Shown: positions 10,219 to 64,000 of the stretch, piece by piece | Position numbering within the stretch: position 1 is the first letter of the stretch | Layout of the letters: each line of letters begins with the position of its first letter | Assembly (NCBI GenBank): GCA_937926445.1 | Contig: CALBAK010000028.1 | Location: 62,001 to 126,000 of the forward strand | Source of the DNA: an uncultured Alphaproteobacteria bacterium | Lineage (GTDB): Bacteria; Pseudomonadota; Alphaproteobacteria; Geminicoccales; Geminicoccaceae | Direction: 5' to 3' | DNA: 64,000 nt | Made by a program: the position numbers and the translations under genes | The notes under the pieces: generated by a model | Told to the model about the DNA's origin: nothing | Databases searched by the model: none | What the model saw: the letters and a program-made list of their open reading frames with translations, nothing else

Positions 10219-10916
10219 TCCACTTCATGTCTCGGGCGGTTGATCTCGGCACCGTGAATAATGAACACGATCTTCTCTGCGATGTTGGTGGCATGATCTG
10301 CAATCCTCTCTAAATTTTTTGCTATGAACAGGAGATCGATACACGTACTGATAGTACGCGGATCCTCGAGCATGTAGGTAACGAGCTCTCTGAAGAGGCT
10401 CGTATATTGGTCATCGACCTCCTTGTCGCGGTTCCATACTGTACTCGCCTTGTCCGCGTCCCGCTCGACATAGGCGTCGAGCACATCCTTCACCATGGCT
10501 AGACAAGACTGACCGATCCGCGGAATTTGCTGGAGCGGTTTCGGCTCGGGCTGTTCCGCCAGCCTCTGCGAGCGCTTGGCGATACTGACTGCATAATCGC
10601 TCATCCGCTCCAGATCGTTGCTGATCTTCAACGCCATCGCGATCATACGCAGGTCGATAGCCATGGGCTGCCGCAGCGCCAGAAGTTTGATGACGTCCTG
10701 GTCGATCCGCTCTTCCAGTTCATCGACTTTCTTGTCCGTTTGGATGACCTGAGCAGCGAGATCGACGTCCCGCCCACTCAAAGCTCTCAACGCGTCGGCA
10801 ACTTGCCGCTCGGCCAAGCCACCCATTTCTACGATCGCGCTCGTGAGCCTCGCAAGTTCCTCGTCGAAAGCCCGAACGATGTGCTGGTGCTCGAGCGCCT
10901 CGGTCTGCCCCCGCAT
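10215..10916 (-). CDS. phoU: Phosphate signalling protein PhoU
   Basis: The 233-residue protein is all-helical with the two tandem PhoU repeats (about 15-115 and 120-220). Each has the metal-binding pattern: E.D.KVDELEERIDQDV in the first and DKEVDDQYTSLFRELVTYM in the second. PhoU bridges the Pst transporter and PhoR and turns the kinase off when phosphate is plentiful. It starts at ATG 10916, ten bases after the pstB stop, and its own stop overlaps the phoB start. The length is normal. Confidence 0.95.
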   Translation of the reverse strand: MRGQTEALEHQHIVRAFDEELARLTSAIVEMGGLAERQVADALRALSGRDVDLAAQVIQTDKKVDELEERIDQDVIKLLALRQPMAIDLRMIAMALKISNDLERMSDYAVSIAKRSQRLAEQPEPKPLQQIPRIGQSCLAMVKDVLDAYVERDADKASTVWNRDKEVDDQYTSLFRELVTYMLEDPRTISTCIDLLFIAKNLERIADHATNIAEKIVFIIHGAEINRPRHEVE

Positions 10917-10926
10917 CGCTCCTCCG

Positions 10927-11745
10927 TCAGCCGAATCGGCCGGTCAGGTAGTCGCTGGTTCGCTGTTCGCGCGGACGTGTGAACATTTCGTTCGTCGGTC
11001 CGTATTCTATCAATTCACCCAGATACATGAAGGCGGTGTAGGTCGAAACACGCGCGGCTTGCTGCATGTTGTGTGTCACGATGAGGACCGTTACGCTCCC
11101 CGCCATCGAGATGATCAGATCCTCGATGCTCGCCGTCGCGATCGGATCGAGCGCCGACGTCGGCTCGTCGAACAGCACGATCTCCGGATCGGTGGCGAGC
11201 GCCCGTGCGATGCACAGCCGTTGCTGCTGTCCCCCCGACAACGCGGTTCCCGGCTCGCCGAGGCGATCCTTCACCTCCTCCCAAAGCGCAGCCCCGCGCA
11301 ACGCAGCCTCGACCCGCCCGTCGAGCTCCGTCTTGTTCCTCACGCCGCGGACCCTGAGCCCGTAGGCGACGTTTTCGTAAATCGATTTCGGGAACGGGTT
11401 CGGCTTTTGAAACACCATCGATATCCGCATACGAACCTCGATGGGATCCACCTCGGGCGAAACGATATTCACGTCGTCGGGGAACAGACGTATTTCTCCC
11501 TCGTAGCGCGTATGCGGTGTCAGATCGTGCATGCGATTGAAACAGCGCAGAAGGGTCGACTTCCCGCAGCCCGACGGTCCAATCAGCGCGGTCACTGCAT
11601 GCTCGTAAATTTCCATATCGATATGCTTGAGCGCCTGCGCGTCACCATAGAAGAAGTTGAGGTCTCTGATGCTGCTCTTCACGTTCCTTTGCGTAGTCGA
11701 GCCCGACTGCGGCGAGGGAACACCCACGGATACCGGATTCGACAT
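10927..11745 (-). CDS. pstB: Phosphate ABC transporter ATP-binding protein PstB
   Basis: From the ATG at 11745, preceded by AAAGGGG, the protein has 272 residues. The reading frame is open much further upstream, but that part is antisense-like sequence over pstA. Walker A (GPSGCGKST, about 56-64), [15 protein letters not shown], Walker [13 protein letters not shown] and the PstB-specific [19 protein letters not shown] are all present. It energises phosphate uptake through PstC and PstA and takes part in signalling to PhoR. Its start lies eight bases downstream of the pstA stop. Confidence 0.96.
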
Positions 11746-46934: not shown

Positions 46935-48878
<1,944 letters not shown>

Positions 48879-48901
48879 CGATCGGGTCCGGGCGCCCGGC
48901 C

Positions 48902-48919
48902 CCGGTCCGTCAGGACCGG
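48902..48919. terminator. Hairpin between acs and the converging methyltransferase gene
   Basis: CCGGTCC (48902-48908), loop GTCA, GGACCGG (48913-48919): a perfect seven-pair stem 23 bases past the acs stop that covers the stop codon of the converging gene. There is no T-run, so terminator function is inferred from position. Confidence 0.45.
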
Positions 48920-49422
48920 CGGTCGGACCGAAGGCCGAGCGCCCGTTCCTCGACCCCGATCCGAAGCACCAGGACCGCCGTGTTCGCGAGTCTTAACACG
49001 GCCGCCCATCGAGGTTCGCCGCAGGCGAGCGCAAGGGCGGGCACCTCGAGAAGCACGATCAGATAGTTGGGATGGCGAAGCCAGCGGTACGACCCGCGGG
49101 TGACGAGCGGTGCTCCGGCCAGCGTCAGCACCCGCGTCATCCAGCGACCGCCCAAGCTTGCGATGACCCAAAGGCGCAGCGGCTGAAACGCGAGCCAAGC
49201 CAGGAACCACGGGAGGACGAGGGGTCGTTCGGCCAGAGCGGCGAGCCACAGTGCCGCCAAGAGCGCCGCGTGCAGGAGCACGATCAGCGGATAATGACGG
49301 GCGCCGTGTTCGACCGCTCCGCGCGCTCTCAAGCGCCGCTGTTTGCGGTACGACCAGCCGAGTTCGGCGAGCCGCCGCGCCGCCACGACGAGCAGCAACA
49401 GATGAACAGGACCGAGGCTCAC
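48910..49422 (-). CDS. Isoprenylcysteine carboxyl methyltransferase-family protein
   Basis: The 170-residue integral membrane protein has about four helices and the ICMT/PEMT-like SAM-binding end GSYRWLRHPNYLIVLLEVPAL. It starts at GTG 49422, overlapping the type III PKS stop (GTGA at 49419-49422). In Bacillus subtilis the equivalent pair is bpsA-bpsB, where the membrane methyltransferase O-methylates alkylpyrones made by the PKS. By analogy this protein probably methylates the PKS product at the membrane. It does not imply prenylated proteins. Confidence 0.86.
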   Translation of the reverse strand: MSLGPVHLLLLVVAARRLAELGWSYRKQRRLRARGAVEHGARHYPLIVLLHAALLAALWLAALAERPLVLPWFLAWLAFQPLRLWVIASLGGRWMTRVLTLAGAPLVTRGSYRWLRHPNYLIVLLEVPALALACGEPRWAAVLRLANTAVLVLRIGVEERALGLRSDRRS

Positions 49423-50459
49423 CGTTCGATCACTGCAAAGCCTGCCGCGAACCCCGGGCCGAGCGCGGTCAGGACCGCGCGCCGCCAGCGCGGTTCGGCG
49501 AGCGCCCGATCGAGCACGTAGAGCACCGTGGGCGCCGACATGTTGCCGAATTCGGCAAGCACCGCGCGGGCGTAGTCCAGTCCCGCGGCCGGTGGCTGTA
49601 GCGCCCCTTCGAGTGCCGCGAGAATCTTCGCCCCACCCGGGTGACAGAGCCAACGATCGACGTCCGCGGTGCCCAGCCGATGGCGAGACAGAAAGGCGGC
49701 CAGCGCCGGGCCCAGCCGGTCGCGTGCGACCTCGGACACGGAGGGAGCGAACAGAACGCCCAGACCGTCGTCCTCGATCCGCCAACCCATGACATCGAGG
49801 GTGCCCGGAAAGCGTATCTCGCCCGTGGGTCCGATCCGAGGCCCCACACCACCTGCCTCGAGAACGGCCACGGCGACGCTGTCGCCGAAGAGCGCGCAGG
49901 CGACGAGGTTGGCGAGGCTCGCATCCGACCAGCGCAGCGCCAGGGAGCAGAGCTCGACGACCAGCAGAAGCACCCGGGTTCCGGGTCGAGCGCGCGCGAG
50001 ATCGGCGGTCCGTGCGAGACCCAGAACTCCGCCCGCGCAGCCGAGACCGAAGAGCGGCGTGCGCACCACATCGTCCCGCAGGCCGATCCGTTCGGCAAGA
50101 CGAGCCTCGAGCAACGGCGTTGCGATGCCCGTCGAGCACACGGTGACGACCGCATCGATGGTGCCCGGCTCGAGGGCCGCCGCCTCCAACGCGCGCGCCG
50201 TGGCGAGCTCGAGCAGGTCGAGCGCCGTATCGAGAAAGATCGCGTTGCGCCGGCCGAAAACCATCGGCTGCAGATAAGCCTCGACCGGTAATGCGATCCG
50301 GCGTCGCTCGATGCCGCAATGGTCGAACAGCTGGAGCCTGCGGTCGAGCTCGTCGAGCCGGTCGGCGAAGAGCCGCCGAGCTCCGGCCTTCGCCGCGGCT
50401 TGGGTCAAAACGTGCGGAGGGTTGGCCAGGGTCAGAGCACGAAGCGCGACCCCGGCCAT
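49419..50459 (-). CDS. Type III polyketide synthase (chalcone/alkylpyrone synthase-like)
   Basis: The 346-residue protein has the thiolase-fold catalytic triad Cys141 (GLGCAGG), His273 (CHPGG) and Asn306 (FGNMSAPT), and a C-terminal GPGFAAG loop. Bacterial homologues extend fatty acyl-CoA starters with malonyl-CoA to give alkylpyrones or alkylresorcinols. The substrate pocket residues cannot be interpreted reliably by eye. It starts at ATG 50459, six bases after the cysteine-hydrolase gene ends, and overlaps the methyltransferase gene, forming a three-gene operon. Confidence 0.92.
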   Translation of the reverse strand: MAGVALRALTLANPPHVLTQAAAKAGARRLFADRLDELDRRLQLFDHCGIERRRIALPVEAYLQPMVFGRRNAIFLDTALDLLELATARALEAAALEPGTIDAVVTVCSTGIATPLLEARLAERIGLRDDVVRTPLFGLGCAGGVLGLARTADLARARPGTRVLLLVVELCSLALRWSDASLANLVACALFGDSVAVAVLEAGGVGPRIGPTGEIRFPGTLDVMGWRIEDDGLGVLFAPSVSEVARDRLGPALAAFLSRHRLGTADVDRWLCHPGGAKILAALEGALQPPAAGLDYARAVLAEFGNMSAPTVLYVLDRALAEPRWRRAVLTALGPGFAAGFAVIER

Positions 50460-50465
50460 GCTCTC

Positions 50466-51215
50466 TCAAAGCCCGGCGAGCTCGTTGGCGAGGATCGCCC
50501 CGCGCGAGGCCATGAAATAGAGCCCCATGTGATGGGCGGGCCATTTCGGGTGGGCCGAGGTCGCGGGCAGGCCGAGCCGCTCCGCGGTCGCCCGCGGCAG
50601 ATCGTAGGTGGCACAAGCCGGTTCGTAGACCACGATGTCGCGCAAGGTCGGCGCGAAGCCGCGGTTGCGGGCCGAAAGCAGGGTCGAGACGAAGTCCATC
50701 ACGCAGATGTCGGTACAGATGCCGACCGTGACGACCGCCTCCAGACGGTGGAGATTGATCCAATCCACCAGCTTGTTGTGCGAAAGCCCGTGCTGACCGC
50801 GAGCAGTAGCCGGTTCGATCGCACCGACGAAGCCGTTGATGCAATCCTTGCGGATCAGGACGACGTCAGGATCGCCCTCGAGCCAGGACAGCTCCGGCAC
50901 GAGATTCTCTTCGCCGGTTCCGCGAATGCAGTGCGGCGGGTAGGGAGGCTCGGGCTTGTTGGGCTCGTGCGTATCGAGGAAGGCGAGAACGGGCAGCTTC
51001 TTCGCCCGAAAGCTCCGGGCGAGGACGTCCGTGCGTTCCACCATCCGGGCGATCTGCTCGTCCGGAGCGCTCGGCGCGAGGTTGCCACAACCGACGGTGC
51101 AGAACCCGTTGACCTCGTCGACGATGACGAGCCCGGCTTCCGCAGCCAGCCGATAGGGCACGAGCTTCACCGGCATGGCCTCCCGAAGCCCGTCTAGAAG
51201 TTCGTCTGTGCTCAT
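50466..51215 (-). CDS. Isochorismatase/nicotinamidase-like cysteine hydrolase
   Basis: From ATG 51215 (MSTDELLDGLREAMP) the protein has 249 residues. The triad is recognisable: Asp in LVIVDEVNGF, Lys in IRKDCINGF and Cys in GICTDICVMDF. PNHC-type loops such as HCIRGTGE follow the usual order. These enzymes hydrolyse nicotinamide, isochorismate or carbamoyl compounds. The length and PPHCIRGT motif resemble nicotinamidases more than isochorismatases. It sits directly upstream of the type III PKS, six bases away, so a role in that pathway is possible, though NAD salvage is equally plausible. Confidence 0.8.
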   Translation of the reverse strand: MSTDELLDGLREAMPVKLVPYRLAAEAGLVIVDEVNGFCTVGCGNLAPSAPDEQIARMVERTDVLARSFRAKKLPVLAFLDTHEPNKPEPPYPPHCIRGTGEENLVPELSWLEGDPDVVLIRKDCINGFVGAIEPATARGQHGLSHNKLVDWINLHRLEAVVTVGICTDICVMDFVSTLLSARNRGFAPTLRDIVVYEPACATYDLPRATAERLGLPATSAHPKWPAHHMGLYFMASRGAILANELAGL

Positions 51216-51340
51216 TCCCGTCCCCCTGCAGATCCGACCGGATGGTTTGAAGATCGCCTCTTCCGGCAGCTCCTTCAATGCCGCGCTTGACACCGGACGG
51301 TCCCGCGCGCTCCTGCCGCGGCGAAGCGGGGAGAGTCGCC

Positions 51341-52138
51341 ATGCGGGTCGGCGTGATCGGTTGCGGCGGTCGAATGGGCCGAGCCGTCGTGCGCGAGGTT
51401 CTCGGAGCTTCGGACCTCGAACTCGCCGGCGGCATCGAGCGATCGGGCCACCCCGACGTCGGGCAGGATCTCGGGCTTCTGGCCGGCGTGGGCGCAACGG
51501 GACTGGTCGCCGGAACCGATCTCGCCGCTCTCCTCGAGCGATGCGATGCGCTGATCGAGTTCTCGACCCCCGAGGCTTCCTTGGAGCATGCGCGGTCCTG
51601 TGCCGATTGGGGGCGACCCCTCGTGGTCGGCACCACGGGCTTCTCGGCCGAGCAGGATCGCGAGCTGTCGCGGCTGGCGGAGCGCTTCCCGCTCCTGGTC
51701 GCCCCGAACATGAGCCTGGGCGTCAATCTCCTCCTCGTGCTGACCGAGCAGGTCGCGCGTGCGCTCGGCCCCGACTTCGACATCGAGATCCTCGAGATGC
51801 ACCATCGCCAGAAGGTCGACGCCCCTTCGGGCACCGCGCTCGCCCTCGGGCGTGCCGCCGCCGAGGGCCGTGGCGTCCGGTTGGACGAGACGGCCGTGCG
51901 CGTCCGGGAGGGAGTGACCGGCCCGCGCTTGCGGGGCACGATCGGCTTCGCCACGCTGCGCGGTGGCGACGTCGTCGGTGACCATTCGGTGATCTTCGCG
52001 GGCGAGGGCGAGCGGATCGTCCTCCAGCACCTCGCGGCCGACCGGCGGATCTACGCCCGCGGTGCCGTGGCGGCGGCGCGGTGGCTCGCGGGACGTCCGC
52101 CCGGACGCTACGGCATGCGCGACGTGTTGGGCTTCTGA
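51341..52138 (+). CDS. dapB: 4-hydroxy-tetrahydrodipicolinate reductase
   Basis: From ATG 51341, with GGGGAGAG upstream, the protein has 265 residues beginning MRVGVIGCGGRMGR, the dinucleotide-binding loop. An upstream ATG at 51278 would add 21 atypical residues. Other motifs are FSTPEASLEHA, VGTTGFS, PNMSLGVNLL and the catalytic EMHHRQKVDAPSGTAL. It makes tetrahydrodipicolinate for lysine and diaminopimelate. It stands alone, divergent from the cysteine hydrolase gene and convergent with the mutase genes. Confidence 0.95.
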   Translation: MRVGVIGCGGRMGRAVVREVLGASDLELAGGIERSGHPDVGQDLGLLAGVGATGLVAGTDLAALLERCDALIEFSTPEASLEHARSCADWGRPLVVGTTGFSAEQDRELSRLAERFPLLVAPNMSLGVNLLLVLTEQVARALGPDFDIEILEMHHRQKVDAPSGTALALGRAAAEGRGVRLDETAVRVREGVTGPRLRGTIGFATLRGGDVVGDHSVIFAGEGERIVLQHLAADRRIYARGAVAAARWLAGRPPGRYGMRDVLGF

Positions 52139-52160: not shown

Positions 52161-54320
52161 TCAGGCCGCGAGATCGTAGCCGAGCTCGCCCGCGAGGATC
52201 TCAAGGAGCTCGGCTGCGGCATCCGCGATCACCGTTCCCGGTGGGAAGATCGCGCGGGCGCCGGCCGCCCTGAGCGCCGGGAAGTCTTGCGGTGGAATCA
52301 CGCCGCCCACCGCCACGACGATGTCGCCCCGGCCCTCGGCCTCGAGTGCGGCCATGAGCTCCGGCACGAGCGTCAGATGTCCGGCCGCGAGCGAGCTCAC
52401 GCCGATCACGTGCACGTCGTTGTCGACGGCCTGCCGCGCGGCCTCGGCAGGTGTCTGGAACAAGGGGCCGATGTCGACGTCGAAGCCGAGGTCGGCGAAG
52501 GCCGTGGCGATCACTTTCTGACCCCGATCGTGGCCGTCTTGGCCCATCTTCGCGATCAGGATCCGGGGTCTGCGCCCTTCCAAGGCGGCGAACGCCTCGA
52601 CCATGCGGCGCACCTTCTGGACCTTCTCGGCTGTCGCCATCTCGCTCGCATACACCCCGCTCACGGCGCGAATCGGTGCCACGTGCCGACCCCAGACCTT
52701 CTCAAGGGCGGCGGTGATCTCGCCGACCGTGGCTCGCTTTCGCGCCGCCTCGATCGAAAGCTCAAGGAGGTTGCCCTCGCCCGTTTCGGCGGCCCGGGTC
52801 AGAGCGTCGAGTGTCCGGCGCAGGGCGAGCTCGTCCCGATCGGCTTTGAGCGCTCTGAGGCGCGCGAGCTGGGCCTCGCGGACCGCCCGATTGTCGATCT
52901 TCAGCACCTCGACCGGCGGCTCGTTCTCCGGCACCCACCGGTTGACACCGACGATCACCCGCCGTCCGCTGTCGATCTGTGCTTGGGTGCGGGCCGCGGC
53001 CTCCTCGATCCGCAGCTTCGGCAGACCCGCGGCGATCGCCGCCGCCATCCCGCCCATGGCCTCGATCTCGGCGATGTGGGCGAGCGCCCGCTCGGCGAGC
53101 CGGGCCGTGAGATTCTCGACATAATAGCTTCCGGCCCAAGGGTCGACGGTCCGCGTGACGCCCGTCTCGTGCTGGATCACGAGCTGCGTGTTGCGCGCGA
53201 TCCGGGCGCTGAAATCGGTCGGCAGCGCGAGCGCCTCGTCGAAGCTGTTCGTGTGTAACGACTGGGTGTGACCGTGCGTCGCCGCCAGAGCCTCGATGGT
53301 CGTGCGGGCGACGTTGTTGAACACGTCCCGTGCCGTGAGGCTCCAGCCCGAGGTCTGGCAATGTGCTCGTAGCATCAAGGAGCGAGGATCTTTGGGCCGG
53401 AACTCCTGCTGGACGAGCTTGGCCCAGAGCAGACGGCCAGCCCGCAGCTTGGCGACCTCCATGAAGAAGTTCATCCCGATCGCCCAGAAGAAGGAGAGGC
53501 GCGGCGCGAAACTGTCCACCGAAAGCCCGGCCCGCAGTCCCGTCCTGATATACTCGATGCCGTCCGCCAACGTGTAGGCCAGCTCGAGATCGGCCGGGGC
53601 CCCGGCCTCGTGCATGTGGTAGCCCGAGATACTGATGGGGTTGAATTTCGGCATGTGCTTCGCCGTCCAGGCGAAGATATCGGCGATGATCCGCATGGAC
53701 GGATCGGGCGGAAAGATATACGTATTTCGTACCATGAATTCCTTGAGAATATCGTTCTGGATCGTCCCGGAGAGCTTCTCGGGGGGGACACCCTGCTCTT
53801 CGCCGGCGACGATGAAGAGGGCGAGCACCGGCAGGACGGCCCCGTTCATCGTCATGCTGACGCTGATCCGATCGAGCGGGATGCCGTCGAACAGGATCCG
53901 CATGTCGAGGATCGAATCGATCGCCACCCCGGCCATGCCGACATCGGCCGCGACACGCGGATGATCGCTGTCGTAGCCCCGATGGGTGGCGAGGTCGAAG
54001 GCGATCGAGAGGCCACGCTGGCCCTGCGCCAGGTTGCGCTTGTAGAAAGCGTTCGATTCCTCGGCCGTGGAGAACCCGGCATATTGCCGGATCGTCCAGG
54101 GCTGCGTCGTGTACATCGTCGGATAGGGGCCGCGCAGGAAGGGCGGAAAGCCCGGCAGTCCTTCGAGAAAATCGAGACCCTCGAGGTCGACCGGCGAATA
54201 GGACGGAGAAAGCGCGATCCCTTCCGGTGTGAGATGGGCCTCGCCTTCCGCCGCCTGCGGCGGTCGGGTGCCGTCCGTCCAGAGCGGGATGTCACGGAGA
54301 TCAGGAATTCGAGACGTCAT
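52161..54320 (-). CDS. scpA: Methylmalonyl-CoA mutase, catalytic (alpha/large) subunit
   Basis: The 719-residue subunit has a TIM-barrel domain (about 40-400; [72 protein letters not shown]). Its C-terminal B12-binding domain has [20 protein letters not shown], including the histidine that ligates cobalt. It interconverts methylmalonyl-CoA and succinyl-CoA, linking propionate and odd-chain or branched-chain breakdown to the TCA cycle. Its ATG overlaps the small-subunit stop (ATGA at 54317-54320). No meaB or epimerase gene is in the window. Confidence 0.97.
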
Positions 54321-56215
54321 TCCAGCCCTCCCGACACCGTCTTCGGCGTTCCGAGCCGCTCGTGCAGCTCCTCAAGAAACGCCAAAAGATCGAAGTCCGA
54401 CCCGATCACGCTCACCTCTCCGGGCAGAGGCTCGGCCGAACCGACGACCCAGATCCGACGTGCCCCGGCGGAGCGTAGCGCATCGACGAGCTCGGCTGTA
54501 CGCTTCGCTTCGCTCGCCCCGATGCAGGCGATCACGACCGGGCCAGCGATGCGTCGCCACGCTTCTCCTGCTTCCGTCGGCCCGCCCAGCCGGACCGAGA
54601 TCGCCTCGAAGCCTCCGGCCGCGAGCAAATTCTCGACCTGTGTCGAGAGCTCGTGGAGCTCGCTGCTCCGGCCGAGGGCAACCACGGGCACCGCGGGCCG
54701 GTGACCGTCCCGCCGTTTCGCCGCCTCCGCGCGCTCCCGTAACCCCTCGAAAGGCTCGGCGAGCCGGAACGGTCGAAGCGGTCGGAACGGTGCCGTCCCG
54801 CGCTCCCTCGGCTGCGCCACCAATACAGTGCGTGCGGCCGCGAGCGCCTCCTCGAATCCGCCCTCGGCCTCCGGCGGCGCCTTGCCCTCGAGGATCGGGA
54901 ACATGGAGACGCCGACCAGCCCGTCCCGGCCGCGCGCCACACGCGCTTCGCGCGCGCGACGGGTCGTCTCGACTTCGGCCTGGAGGCTGCCGGCCCGCAA
55001 GGCGGCCAATAGGCCGCCCGCGGCCTCGATCGCTTGCAGCTTCTTCCAAGCCGCTTCGGCGAGCGAGCGGGTCAAGTGCGCGACATACCAGGCACCGGCA
55101 GCGGGGTCGCGCACGCGCCCCACCCCGGCCTCCTCGCGAAGGACGAGCTGCACGTTGCGGGCGATCCGTCGGGCGAGCGGGCTGGCCGGCCCGAGCGTCC
55201 GGTCGAACGGTTGCACCGTGACCGCATCGGCCCCCCCGGCGACCGCGGCCAGCGCCGCCACGGTCGTGCGCAGGATGTTCACCCAGGGATCCAGCCGCGA
55301 CAACATCCGCGAACCCGTTTCGGCCCGGATCCGGACTTTTTCGCTCCGGTCGCCCAGGCCGGCGGCTTCGAGGATCCGCTCGAAGGCGAGGCGAGCCGCG
55401 CGCAGCTTGGCGAGCGAGAGGAAGAGGTCGGCGTCGACCGCGAAAACGAGCTCGAGCCGCCGGAGGATCGTGTCGAGAGCGATGCCGGCGCCCTCGGCCC
55501 GCTGGAGCCAAAGGGTCGCCGAGGCGAGCACCGCGGCGATCTCCAGTGCCTCGCTCGCACCCGCCTCGTACCAGGACCGACCGTCCGCGAGAATGTACAA
55601 GACAGGGCTGCGCCCGAGCGCTGCCACACAGGCATCGAGTAAGGTCGACGGATCGGCCGAAGCACCCGTCAGGGCTGCGTCCACCGGGTCCGCCAGGACG
55701 CGCCAGTCGGCGGCAACGAGCTCGCGTCGGTACCCTCGCAACGCCTCGAGATCGAACAGCCGCTCCAGCGCCCATTCTCCCGCCTCGAAGCGGACGGTAC
55801 AGCCTCCACTCGGAAGCGCGGTAACGAGCTTCTCGAGGGCAGCCCGATCGTAAGCCAGCACCCCGTCGGGCCGCTCGCCTCCGCGGCCGATCGCCCGATC
55901 GAGGTGAAACACAACGGCATCGGCGCCCGAGTCCAGGTCTTCCCGCGCCTCCGCGCCGGCCCGGTTTGGATCCGGATGGCGGTGCGGCTGCACGATTTCC
56001 CAAACACGCGGCCAACCTCCGCCCGGGCTACGGTCGGCTCCGGCATTGCCGAGCAGTGGTGCATAGAGTGGCTCGATCGGCACGCCGTCGTCGGTGCACC
56101 CGACCAGCCCCTCGACGCCCGCGGCACCGGCCGTTCGAGCCGCCAGTGCCCGCCACTCGTCGGGATTCGGGGCCGGAAAGCTCCCGGCCAGGATACGCCG
56201 CCCGCTCGTCTCCAT
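54317..56215 (-). CDS. mutA: Methylmalonyl-CoA mutase, small (beta) subunit
   Basis: The natural start is ATG 56215 behind GAAGGAG, giving 632 residues. It shares the barrel architecture of the large subunit ([59 protein letters not shown]). In its C-terminal cobalamin-like fold the DxHxxG motif is missing, the normal state of the non-catalytic beta chain. It stabilises the heterodimer. It is more divergent and has a more variable Arg/Glu-rich linker (about 470-530) than the large subunit. Confidence 0.92.
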
Positions 56216-61995: not shown

Positions 61996-64000
61996 ATGCG
62001 CAGCGAGGCGCTCAATGTGCTCGACCGGCTGCCGACCCTGGCGCTCGGGGCGGAGCGTTTCGAGCGACCCGAGGCGGGTCGCCGGTTCGAGCTCGTTTCG
62101 GACTACGCGCCGGCCGGTGATCAGCCACAGGCGATCGAGGAGTTGGTCGAGGGCATCGAGCGCGGTGCCCGTGATCAGGTACTCCTCGGTGTCACCGGCT
62201 CCGGCAAGACGTTCACCATGGCGAACGTGATCGCCCGTCTGCAGCGGCCGACGCTGATCCTGGCTCCGAACAAGATCCTGGCAGCGCAGCTTTACGGGGA
62301 GATGAAGAGCTTCTTCCCCAACAACGCCGTCGAATATTTCGTAAGTTACTACGATTATTATCAGCCGGAAGCCTACGTTCCGCGCAGCGACACCTATATC
62401 GAAAAGACGGCGAGCATCAACGAGCAGATCGACAGAATGCGCCACAGCGCGACCCGCGCGCTGTTCGAGCGCGACGACGTGCTGATCGTCGCATCGGTCT
62501 CCTGCATCTACGGTATCGGCTCCCCCGAGGTCTACGCCCGGATGACCTTGACCCTGTGCACCGGGGAGACGGTCGATCGCCAGCAGCTCCTGCGAGCCCT
62601 GGTCGAGCTCCAGTATCGGCGCAACGATCTCGACTTCGGCCGTGGCGCGTTCCGGGCCAGAGGCGACGTCATCGAGATCTTTCCCGCCCACCTCGAAGAC
62701 CGAGCCTGGCGGATATCGCTCTTCGGCGACCGAATCGAGCGGATCGTCGAGATCGATCCTTTGACGGGCGAGCGCACGGCCCGCCTCGAGCAGGTCCGGC
62801 TCTACCCCAACAGCCACTACGTCACCCCGCGACCCACACTCCAGCAGGCGGTCGAGGGGATCAAGCGCGAGCTCGCCGAGCGGCTCGCCGAGTTCCGTGC
62901 CCAGGGCAAACTTCTCGAAGCGGAACGTCTCGAGCAGCGGACCACCGCCGATCTCGAGATGATCCTCACTACCGGATCCTGCCCTGGCATCGAGAACTAT
63001 TCGCGCTATCTCACCGGTCGCAAGCCCGGCGAGCCACCCCCGACGCTCTTCGAGTATCTGCCGCGAAACGCATTGCTCTTCGTCGACGAGAGCCACGTCA
63101 CCGTGCCGCAGGTGGGCGGCATGTTCCGCGGTGACTGGCACCGCAAGTCGACGCTCGCGGAATACGGTTTTCGTCTCCCCTCCTGTTGTGACAATCGGCC
63201 GCTCAAGTTCGAGGAATGGGACGCTATGCGGCCGGCGACGATCTTTGTCTCGGCCACGCCGGGACCTTTCGAGCTCTCGCGGACCGGCGGGGTCTTCGTC
63301 GAACAGGTGATCCGTCCTACCGGCCTCGTCGATCCGGTTTGCGAGGTCCGGCCGGTGGAGCGACAGGTCGACGATCTCCTGGCCGAGTGTCGGCTCGCGC
63401 GCGAGCGCGGCTATCGTGTGCTGGTTACCACCCTCACCAAGCGGATGGCCGAGGACCTGTCCGAATATCTGCACGAGCAGGGTGTTCGGGTCCGTTACAT
63501 GCACTCGGACATCGACACGCTCGAGCGCATCGAGATCGTTCGCGACCTCCGACTCGGCAAGTTCGACGTGCTCGTCGGGATCAACCTCCTGCGCGAGGGG
63601 CTCGACATCCCCGAGTGCGGGCTGGTCGCTATCCTGGACGCCGACAAGGAAGGCTATCTCCGCTCGGAGACCTCGCTCGTACAGACGATCGGCCGGGCGG
63701 CGCGCAACGCCGAGGGTCGGGTCGTCCTCTACGCCGACACGATGACCCGCTCGCTCGAGGCGGCGCTGCGCGAGACCGAGCGGCGGCGTGCCAAGCAGAT
63801 CGCCTGGAACGAGGCGCACGGTATCACCCCGCAGTCGGTCAAGAAGCAGATCGCCGACATCCTGGGCTCGGTGGCCGAACGCGACTACGTGACGGTCGAG
63901 CTCGGGCCCCGCACGCCGAAGACGCTCGTCGGCCGCGACCTCCGAGCCTACATCGCCGAGCTCGAGCGGAAGATGCGCGAAGCGGCCGCCGAGCTCGAGT
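61996..64000 (+). CDS. uvrB: Excinuclease ABC subunit B, 3' end outside window
   Basis: The frame opens at ATG 61996 and stays open for 668 codons to the window edge, so the protein is cut at its C terminus. Motifs in order: [17 protein letters not shown], Walker [16 protein letters not shown], the beta-hairpin [20 protein letters not shown], Walker [13 protein letters not shown], the helicase motif ATPGPFE, and [25 protein letters not shown]. UvrB is the damage-verifying helicase of nucleotide excision repair and hands damaged DNA to UvrC. No LexA box of the alphaproteobacterial direct-repeat type is visible before it. Confidence 0.98.

Follow-up and report, generated by a model that had tools for sequence, protein, structure and literature searches.

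A bpsAB-like type III polyketide synthase–methyltransferase pair directly behind a probable nicotinamidase gene in Geminicoccaceae

The 64,000-nucleotide stretch of contig CALBAK010000028.1 analysed here (positions 62,001 to 126,000 of the forward strand; assembly GCA_937926445.1), which we refer to as the window, carries a cysteine hydrolase gene, followed after a 6-base gap by a type III polyketide synthase (PKS) gene and then by a gene for a membrane methyltransferase of the isoprenylcysteine carboxyl methyltransferase (ICMT) family that overlaps the PKS stop by 4 nt. The initial annotation had described a three-gene operon at this position; the gene order, the six-base gap and the Pfam matches bear out an operon-like trio, and since the matches of its genes are all well over cut-off the trio is not a chance arrangement. 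Its members are:

50466..51215, minus strand: PF00857 cysteine hydrolase, ATG start, 249 aa (PF00857, E-value 2.1e-19)
49419..50459, minus strand: type III PKS, 346 aa (PF00195, E-value 2.4e-18; PF02797, E-value 1.1e-11)
48910..49422, minus strand: ICMT-family membrane methyltransferase, GTG start, 170 aa (PF04140, E-value 9.4e-21)

The same hydrolase-PKS-ICMT order was found in 8 further Geminicoccaceae genomes, including one (G008) whose contig stops ahead of the expected ICMT start, and the PKS-ICMT overlap was 4 nt in all 9 Geminicoccaceae loci holding both genes. The three closest named-genome matches of the window PKS were metagenome-assembled genomes of Geminicoccaceae (78–80% identity), and the trio very probably lies within a genome of this family.

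The PKS passes PF00195 (66.8 bits) and PF02797 (45.4 bits), for which the cut-offs are 27 bits each. When the window sequence was aligned with those from 34 of 46 PKS loci from named genomes, Cys141, His273 and Asn306 were unvarying across all 35 sequences, confirming the earlier description of a chalcone-synthase-like enzyme with an intact Cys-His-Asn triad. The best single-sequence match in the PDB was Pks11 of Mycobacterium tuberculosis (E-value 6.4e-53), an enzyme making methyl-branched alkylpyrones, and the same protein (4jao) was the best fold match to the AlphaFold2 model of the window PKS (pLDDT 94.0; TM 0.93). The two enzymes have the catalytic residues in common, and Trp226 of the window PKS, a Trp retained in at least 90% of the 35 sequences, aligns to Trp230 of Pks11; however, their identity is 32%, and in a search of the PDB with the family profile both 7cb3 (a PKS of M. 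marinum) and Pks18 outranked Pks11. The products of type III PKSs are difficult to foretell from sequence, and the best NCBIfam match of the window PKS was DpgA, far short of its cut-off (111.2 against 425 bits), both of which leave some room for a different product (e.g., tetrahydroxynaphthalene or a short-chain pyrone), which would then serve as the substrate of the ICMT enzyme. We consider such a product quite improbable, given that Pks11 ranks first among the solved relatives in both sequence and fold, and that Trp226 aligns with a position tied to resorcinol formation: in the available part of a study of M. marinum enzymes, Trp230 is described as shared by the alkylresorcinol-forming enzymes, PKS11 included (PMC5916927). 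A review, as far as its available part goes, reports that a Trp/Gly swap between ArsB and ArsC moves the product between resorcinols and pyrones, and also describes RpsA of Rhodospirillum centenum, a type III PKS using methylmalonyl-CoA (PMC6274091). RpsA is alphaproteobacterial like the window PKS, to which we liken it by description and not by sequence, and mutase genes lie near the window trio (see below). Taken with its relatives, the window PKS is most likely of the alkylpyrone/alkylresorcinol type.

The methyltransferase retains the RHPNY...E core found throughout 34 aligned sequences, and a gene for an ICMT-family enzyme lies behind the PKS gene in 29 of the 46 named-genome loci, the other 17 all being loci of distant PKSs (26–38% identity). 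Most of the 29 carriers of the pair belong to the Alphaproteobacteria (among them Inquilinus, Rhizobium, Stella, Reyranella, Novosphingobium and others); the rest comprise two Bacillota (Brevibacillus, L054, and a Selenomonadales bacterium, L055), one genome labelled Eremiobacterota and one labelled Mycobacterium. The PKS of the last (Mycobacterium sp. KBS0706, L034, NZ_VCCH02000118.1) is near-identical to that of Inquilinus limosus (branch length 0.017 in the PKS tree), which suggests that the genome is mislabelled or mixed. Relatives of the PKS also occur in 159 plasmid records; 4 of the 5 such loci that we viewed have an adjoining ICMT gene, and none of the 5 has the hydrolase gene adjoining the PKS gene. 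The fifth, plasmid p42d of Rhizobium etli (L174), encodes a related type III PKS with no adjoining ICMT gene; 45 Rhizobium plasmid records hold relatives of this PKS.

Some loci depart from the tight arrangement. The PKS and ICMT genes are ~560–690 bases apart in Vineibacter, a Rhodospirillaceae genome and Reyranella (L042, L043 and L056, respectively), the intervening gene encoding a TPR-repeat protein in Vineibacter and being a predicted gene in the other two. A major-facilitator transporter gene lies directly behind the ICMT gene in L130 (genome G002) and in Novosphingobium (L050), and in Sphingomonas parapaucimobilis such a gene is divergent to the PKS gene; a transporter beside the pair could possibly be an exporter of the lipid.

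The initial annotation had compared the coupling of the PKS to an ICMT-family methyltransferase with bpsAB of Bacillus, and with the 4-nt overlap and the 29 of 46 loci in view the comparison is a fair one. In Bacillus, bpsA-bpsB is a two-gene unit of type III PKS and methyltransferase, and its alkylpyrones are reported to affect biofilm and sporulation (PMC5686519, available part). The arrangement is the one seen in the window pair, and also in Brevibacillus and the Selenomonadales bacterium, whose PKSs are 38% and 43% identical, respectively, to that of the window; the likeness is one of gene arrangement and not of the B. subtilis BpsA and BpsB sequences. The Geminicoccaceae group differs from bpsA-bpsB in having a probable nicotinamidase gene in front of the pair. 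The hidABC-type operons of planctomycetes and cyanobacteria, which the available part of PMC10896814 ties to alkylresorcinols, encode a methyltransferase, an oxidoreductase and a type III PKS. They resemble the window trio in having three genes, of which one encodes a type III PKS and another a methyltransferase, but the third encodes an oxidoreductase and the PKS gene stands at the end; the planctomycete loci that we fetched gave no ICMT match. The available part of a paper on Geminicoccaceae (PMC9659566) makes no mention of type III PKSs. Judged by its spread, the PKS-methyltransferase pair is an old, widespread bpsAB-like unit, and its products are most likely methylated fatty pyrone or resorcinol lipids.

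How far the hydrolase belongs with this pair was examined in the 31 Geminicoccaceae genomes, most of them in many contigs (searches at the level of the order gave an identical set of 31). The hydrolase was found in 27 and a PKS at an E-value of 1e-30 or less in 19. The two genes adjoin in nine genomes (G000, G003, G008, G010, G016, G017, G022, G023 and G024), hereafter called linked; nine others have both genes but apart (G001, G002, G004, G011, G014, G015, G019, G026 and G028), the PKS of G004 being a distant type without ICMT; and nine have the hydrolase with no PKS at this threshold (G005, G007, G009, G012, G013, G018, G027, G029 and G030). A PKS alone was found in G021, whose contig breaks off inside the PKS, and neither gene was found in G006, G020 and G025. 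In a midpoint-rooted RpoB tree of 26 of the 31 genomes, the nine rows labelled as linked fell on one side of a branch with support 95/96, together with four PKS-less genomes, and the linked label needed 3 changes. For this tree G021 was counted as linked and several rows are partial; G003, G014, G015 and G030 gave no rpoB match and the fragments from G020 were left out.

Outside the family the trio was not seen among the loci examined. Three of the 46 named-genome loci are Geminicoccaceae trios and two (L030 and L052) are cut off upstream; the other 41 hold 1.1–8 kb of upstream sequence, and none of these has a hydrolase homologue upstream of the PKS, including the 24 that carry the PKS-ICMT pair. 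Among 142 genomes sampled across the class, the hydrolase occurred in 9 outside the family, 4 of which also hold a PKS (E-value of 1e-20 or less, one of distant type), on a separate contig from the hydrolase in all 4. Conservation of the trio's neighbourhood, proposed earlier as a check, holds for the junction within one group of genera; elsewhere the pair and the hydrolase occur apart or one without the other.

The genes on either side of the trio in the window are as follows:

51341..52138, plus strand: dapB, divergent to the hydrolase gene and a frequent neighbour of it, PKS-less genomes included
46935..48878, plus strand: acs (acetate-CoA ligase), convergent, on the other flank of the trio site

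Of 26 loci examined, 16 have dapB adjoining the hydrolase gene, namely 7 of the 9 linked loci and 9 of the remaining 17, and the order dapB-hydrolase-acs without the pair was found in G001, G015 and G018, with the pair located elsewhere in G001 and G015. G018 is of the same genus as the linked genomes G016 and G017, and the stretch behind its hydrolase gene matches G017 twice (81% over 143 bp and 75% over 138 bp), the two matching segments being ~1.3 kb apart in G017. Translated, this stretch encodes PKS residues 9–36 (79% identity, E-value 2.7e-6) and then ICMT residues 139–162 (67%, 1.5e-7), in G017 numbering and with E-values calculated for a 250-base stretch, and it sits between an intact hydrolase gene with a complete frame and a carbonic anhydrase gene. 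Because this scar is present we regard G018 as having lost the pair, the simplest reading being an in-place deletion of the pair that spared the hydrolase; the sequence by itself leaves room for an assembly error. We found no scar in G001, where fewer than 50 bases separate the hydrolase gene from acs, and no clear one in G015, whose site holds another open frame. At a different alphaproteobacterial locus (L041, positions 10354-11148, from an uncultured organism), a dapB match (49%) lies less than 1 kb behind a PKS-ICMT pair with no hydrolase there.

The PKS tree leaves room both for a single insertion of the pair behind the hydrolase gene and for a pair that stood there first and moved away elsewhere. 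The PKS of G001, located away from the hydrolase, branches among those of the linked genomes. On this tree the linked label requires 3 changes, and its carriers form a single group in 1% of 200 bootstrap trees, yet the well-supported branches alone are compatible with one origin of the linkage. This tree leaves out L029–L032 (apparently the same records as G023, G021, G022 and G024) and all distant loci except three used as outgroup, and its G001 row is the first piece of a split gene: the PKS of G001 (L013 and L024, contig C23:224653-225677) is in two pieces, residues 4–261 and 265–345, followed by an ICMT match, a split that would reflect a frameshift or an assembly error.

Turning to the hydrolase itself, Asp33, Lys123 and Cys167 together with Asp81, His83 and His95 were unvarying in 25 sequences (from 25 of the 27 genomes, leaving out G005 and a G013 fragment); we take the first three to be the catalytic triad and the others to be metal-site residues, assigning the roles from nicotinamidase structures in general and from PDB alignments. 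An Asp-Lys-Cys triad and an Asp-x-His...PPHC metal motif are shared with nicotinamidases of the PncA and plant NIC types, the likeness to plant NIC1 being presumed. Homologues occur in 12 plasmid records, and at 4 of the 5 loci that we viewed (Bosea RAC05, Bosea ANAM02, Azospirillum B510 and A. oryzae) genes for NAD+ synthase and nicotinate phosphoribosyltransferase lie beside the homologue, with a nicotinamide-nucleotide adenylyltransferase gene as well at both Azospirillum loci. The steps of nicotinamide salvage are those of nicotinamidase, nicotinate phosphoribosyltransferase, the adenylyltransferase and NAD synthetase (PMC2936527, available part), and since the Azospirillum loci hold the other three, the hydrolase would fill the missing nicotinamidase step. 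The PKS-ICMT pair of A. oryzae is on a different plasmid from the hydrolase homologue. In the window's genome nicotinate phosphoribosyltransferase is encoded on another contig, and there are three other PF00857 proteins, one over the biuret amidohydrolase cut-off and two matching hydrolase models below cut-off. No residue was fixed in the 9 linked hydrolases but absent from the 16 other aligned ones, and the sequence accordingly gives no sign of a new activity where the genes are linked. The hydrolase is probably a nicotinamidase of NAD salvage.

On this evidence we give a probability of about 85% to the reading that a bpsAB-like lipid pair lies behind, and is possibly co-transcribed with, a nicotinamidase gene whose product takes no chemical part. 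Several observations weigh against it. As regards the hydrolase, its PDB matches are few and weak, with nicotinamidases among them; the NCBIfam nicotinamidase/pyrazinamidase model NF008623 scores it at 19.2 bits against a cut-off of 174, and the protein is therefore not a member of that equivalog, only one that would work like a nicotinamidase; its AlphaFold2 model, made from a 4-row alignment, is of low confidence (pLDDT 46.2) and was not used further; the fifth plasmid locus viewed, that of A. argentinense, shows no NAD-salvage genes; and our search of Geminicoccaceae loci found no pncB near the hydrolase gene. As regards the linkage, G020, which is of the window's genus and 95% complete, shows neither gene, which could reflect a gap or a joint loss. 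The junction, moreover, was kept in all 9 genomes of the clade that retain the PKS and in which the junction can be seen, with a hydrolase-PKS spacing of about -11 to 36 nt (gene starts were picked by script, and the PKS start of G010 is unresolved), and it was kept also in G008 and G010, where dapB no longer adjoins the hydrolase. These last two observations can be accounted for by background synteny or by a shared transcript, yet they may also be a sign of a functional tie.

As an alternative, the pair and a nicotinamidase gene might be co-transcribed under selection, with NAD turnover or stress turning on both salvage and membrane lipid modification. The operon-like spacing throughout the group of genera, the persistence of the linkage in the two genomes that lost dapB adjacency and a six-base gap in which no terminator-like site was found all speak for this. 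However, dapB, acs, tesA and the ABC genes of the wider neighbourhood are conserved too, so the kept adjacency needs no selection, and the PKS-ICMT pair is kept away from the hydrolase in 8 family genomes; we think selected co-transcription rather unlikely, and it overlaps with the reading that we prefer, with which it is compatible. A truly functional operon in the one group of genera, either switching on NAD salvage and methylated alkylpyrone/alkylresorcinol synthesis together (e.g., in dormancy or stress) or containing a hydrolase that gained a second activity on the polyketide, appears unlikely.

The same tight junction, and its persistence without dapB beside the hydrolase, could also be cited for the proposal in the initial annotation that the hydrolase is a dedicated enzyme trimming or preparing a precursor or product of the pair, and that the metabolite is new. 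We rejected the hydrolase as a dedicated partner on its distribution (without a PKS in 9 of the 31 genomes, apart from it in 9 more, and missing from all 24 of the other pair loci with upstream sequence), on the G018 scar, where the hydrolase is intact despite the loss of the pair, on the NAD-salvage genes adjoining its homologues and on the lack of linked-specific residues. That proposal is very improbable, and the novelty of the metabolite, insofar as it was argued from the hydrolase, is unsupported. What was named at the outset as telling against a partner, an ordinary nicotinamidase with no linkage elsewhere, is in substance what we found, the linkage being conserved in one group of genera and the nicotinamidase activity being a prediction.

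Further out in the window, mutB and mutA lie beyond dapB, and a GDSL lipase gene and an ABC transporter pair lie beyond acs. The methylmalonyl-CoA mutase genes (52161-56215) were seen past dapB only in the window's genus among the loci examined, and are possibly tied to the use of a methylmalonyl-CoA extender. A promoter scan of 48870-51400 found no sigma-70-like promoter. A perfect inverted repeat at 48902-48919 (7-base arms, 4-base loop) spans the ICMT stop in the convergent gap between acs and the ICMT gene; whether it acts as a terminator is uncertain, because no T-run follows the repeat.

From the gene order, coupling, active-site residues, distribution and deletion scar that we observed, we infer the three enzyme activities, their substrates and the co-transcription as follows. 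The PKS would load a fatty acyl starter on Cys141, carry out two or three extensions with malonyl- and/or methylmalonyl-CoA and close the chain to an alkylpyrone and/or an alkylresorcinol, which the membrane ICMT-family enzyme would methylate with S-adenosylmethionine. The hydrolase would turn nicotinamide into nicotinate, the form passed to PncB in NAD salvage, with no chemical role in the polyketide pathway. Its gene would belong to a dapB-nicotinamidase-acs chromosomal backbone, and in a single group of genera within the family it has the lipid pair directly behind it, where the pair may be transcribed from the promoter of the hydrolase gene. The trio is thus probably the outcome of gene-neighbour history and not a new pathway.

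What looks like a striking three-gene operon can therefore turn out to be a lipid unit of two genes that follows a housekeeping gene. Pair-less sites, a deletion scar and the operons of homologues together provide a clean test separating real partners from neighbours. A new three-enzyme pathway is not supported, and the window pair instead joins a known kind of lipid-polyketide gene pair. PKS-ICMT pairs are found broadly among Alphaproteobacteria, and it would be worthwhile to identify the lipids that they make.

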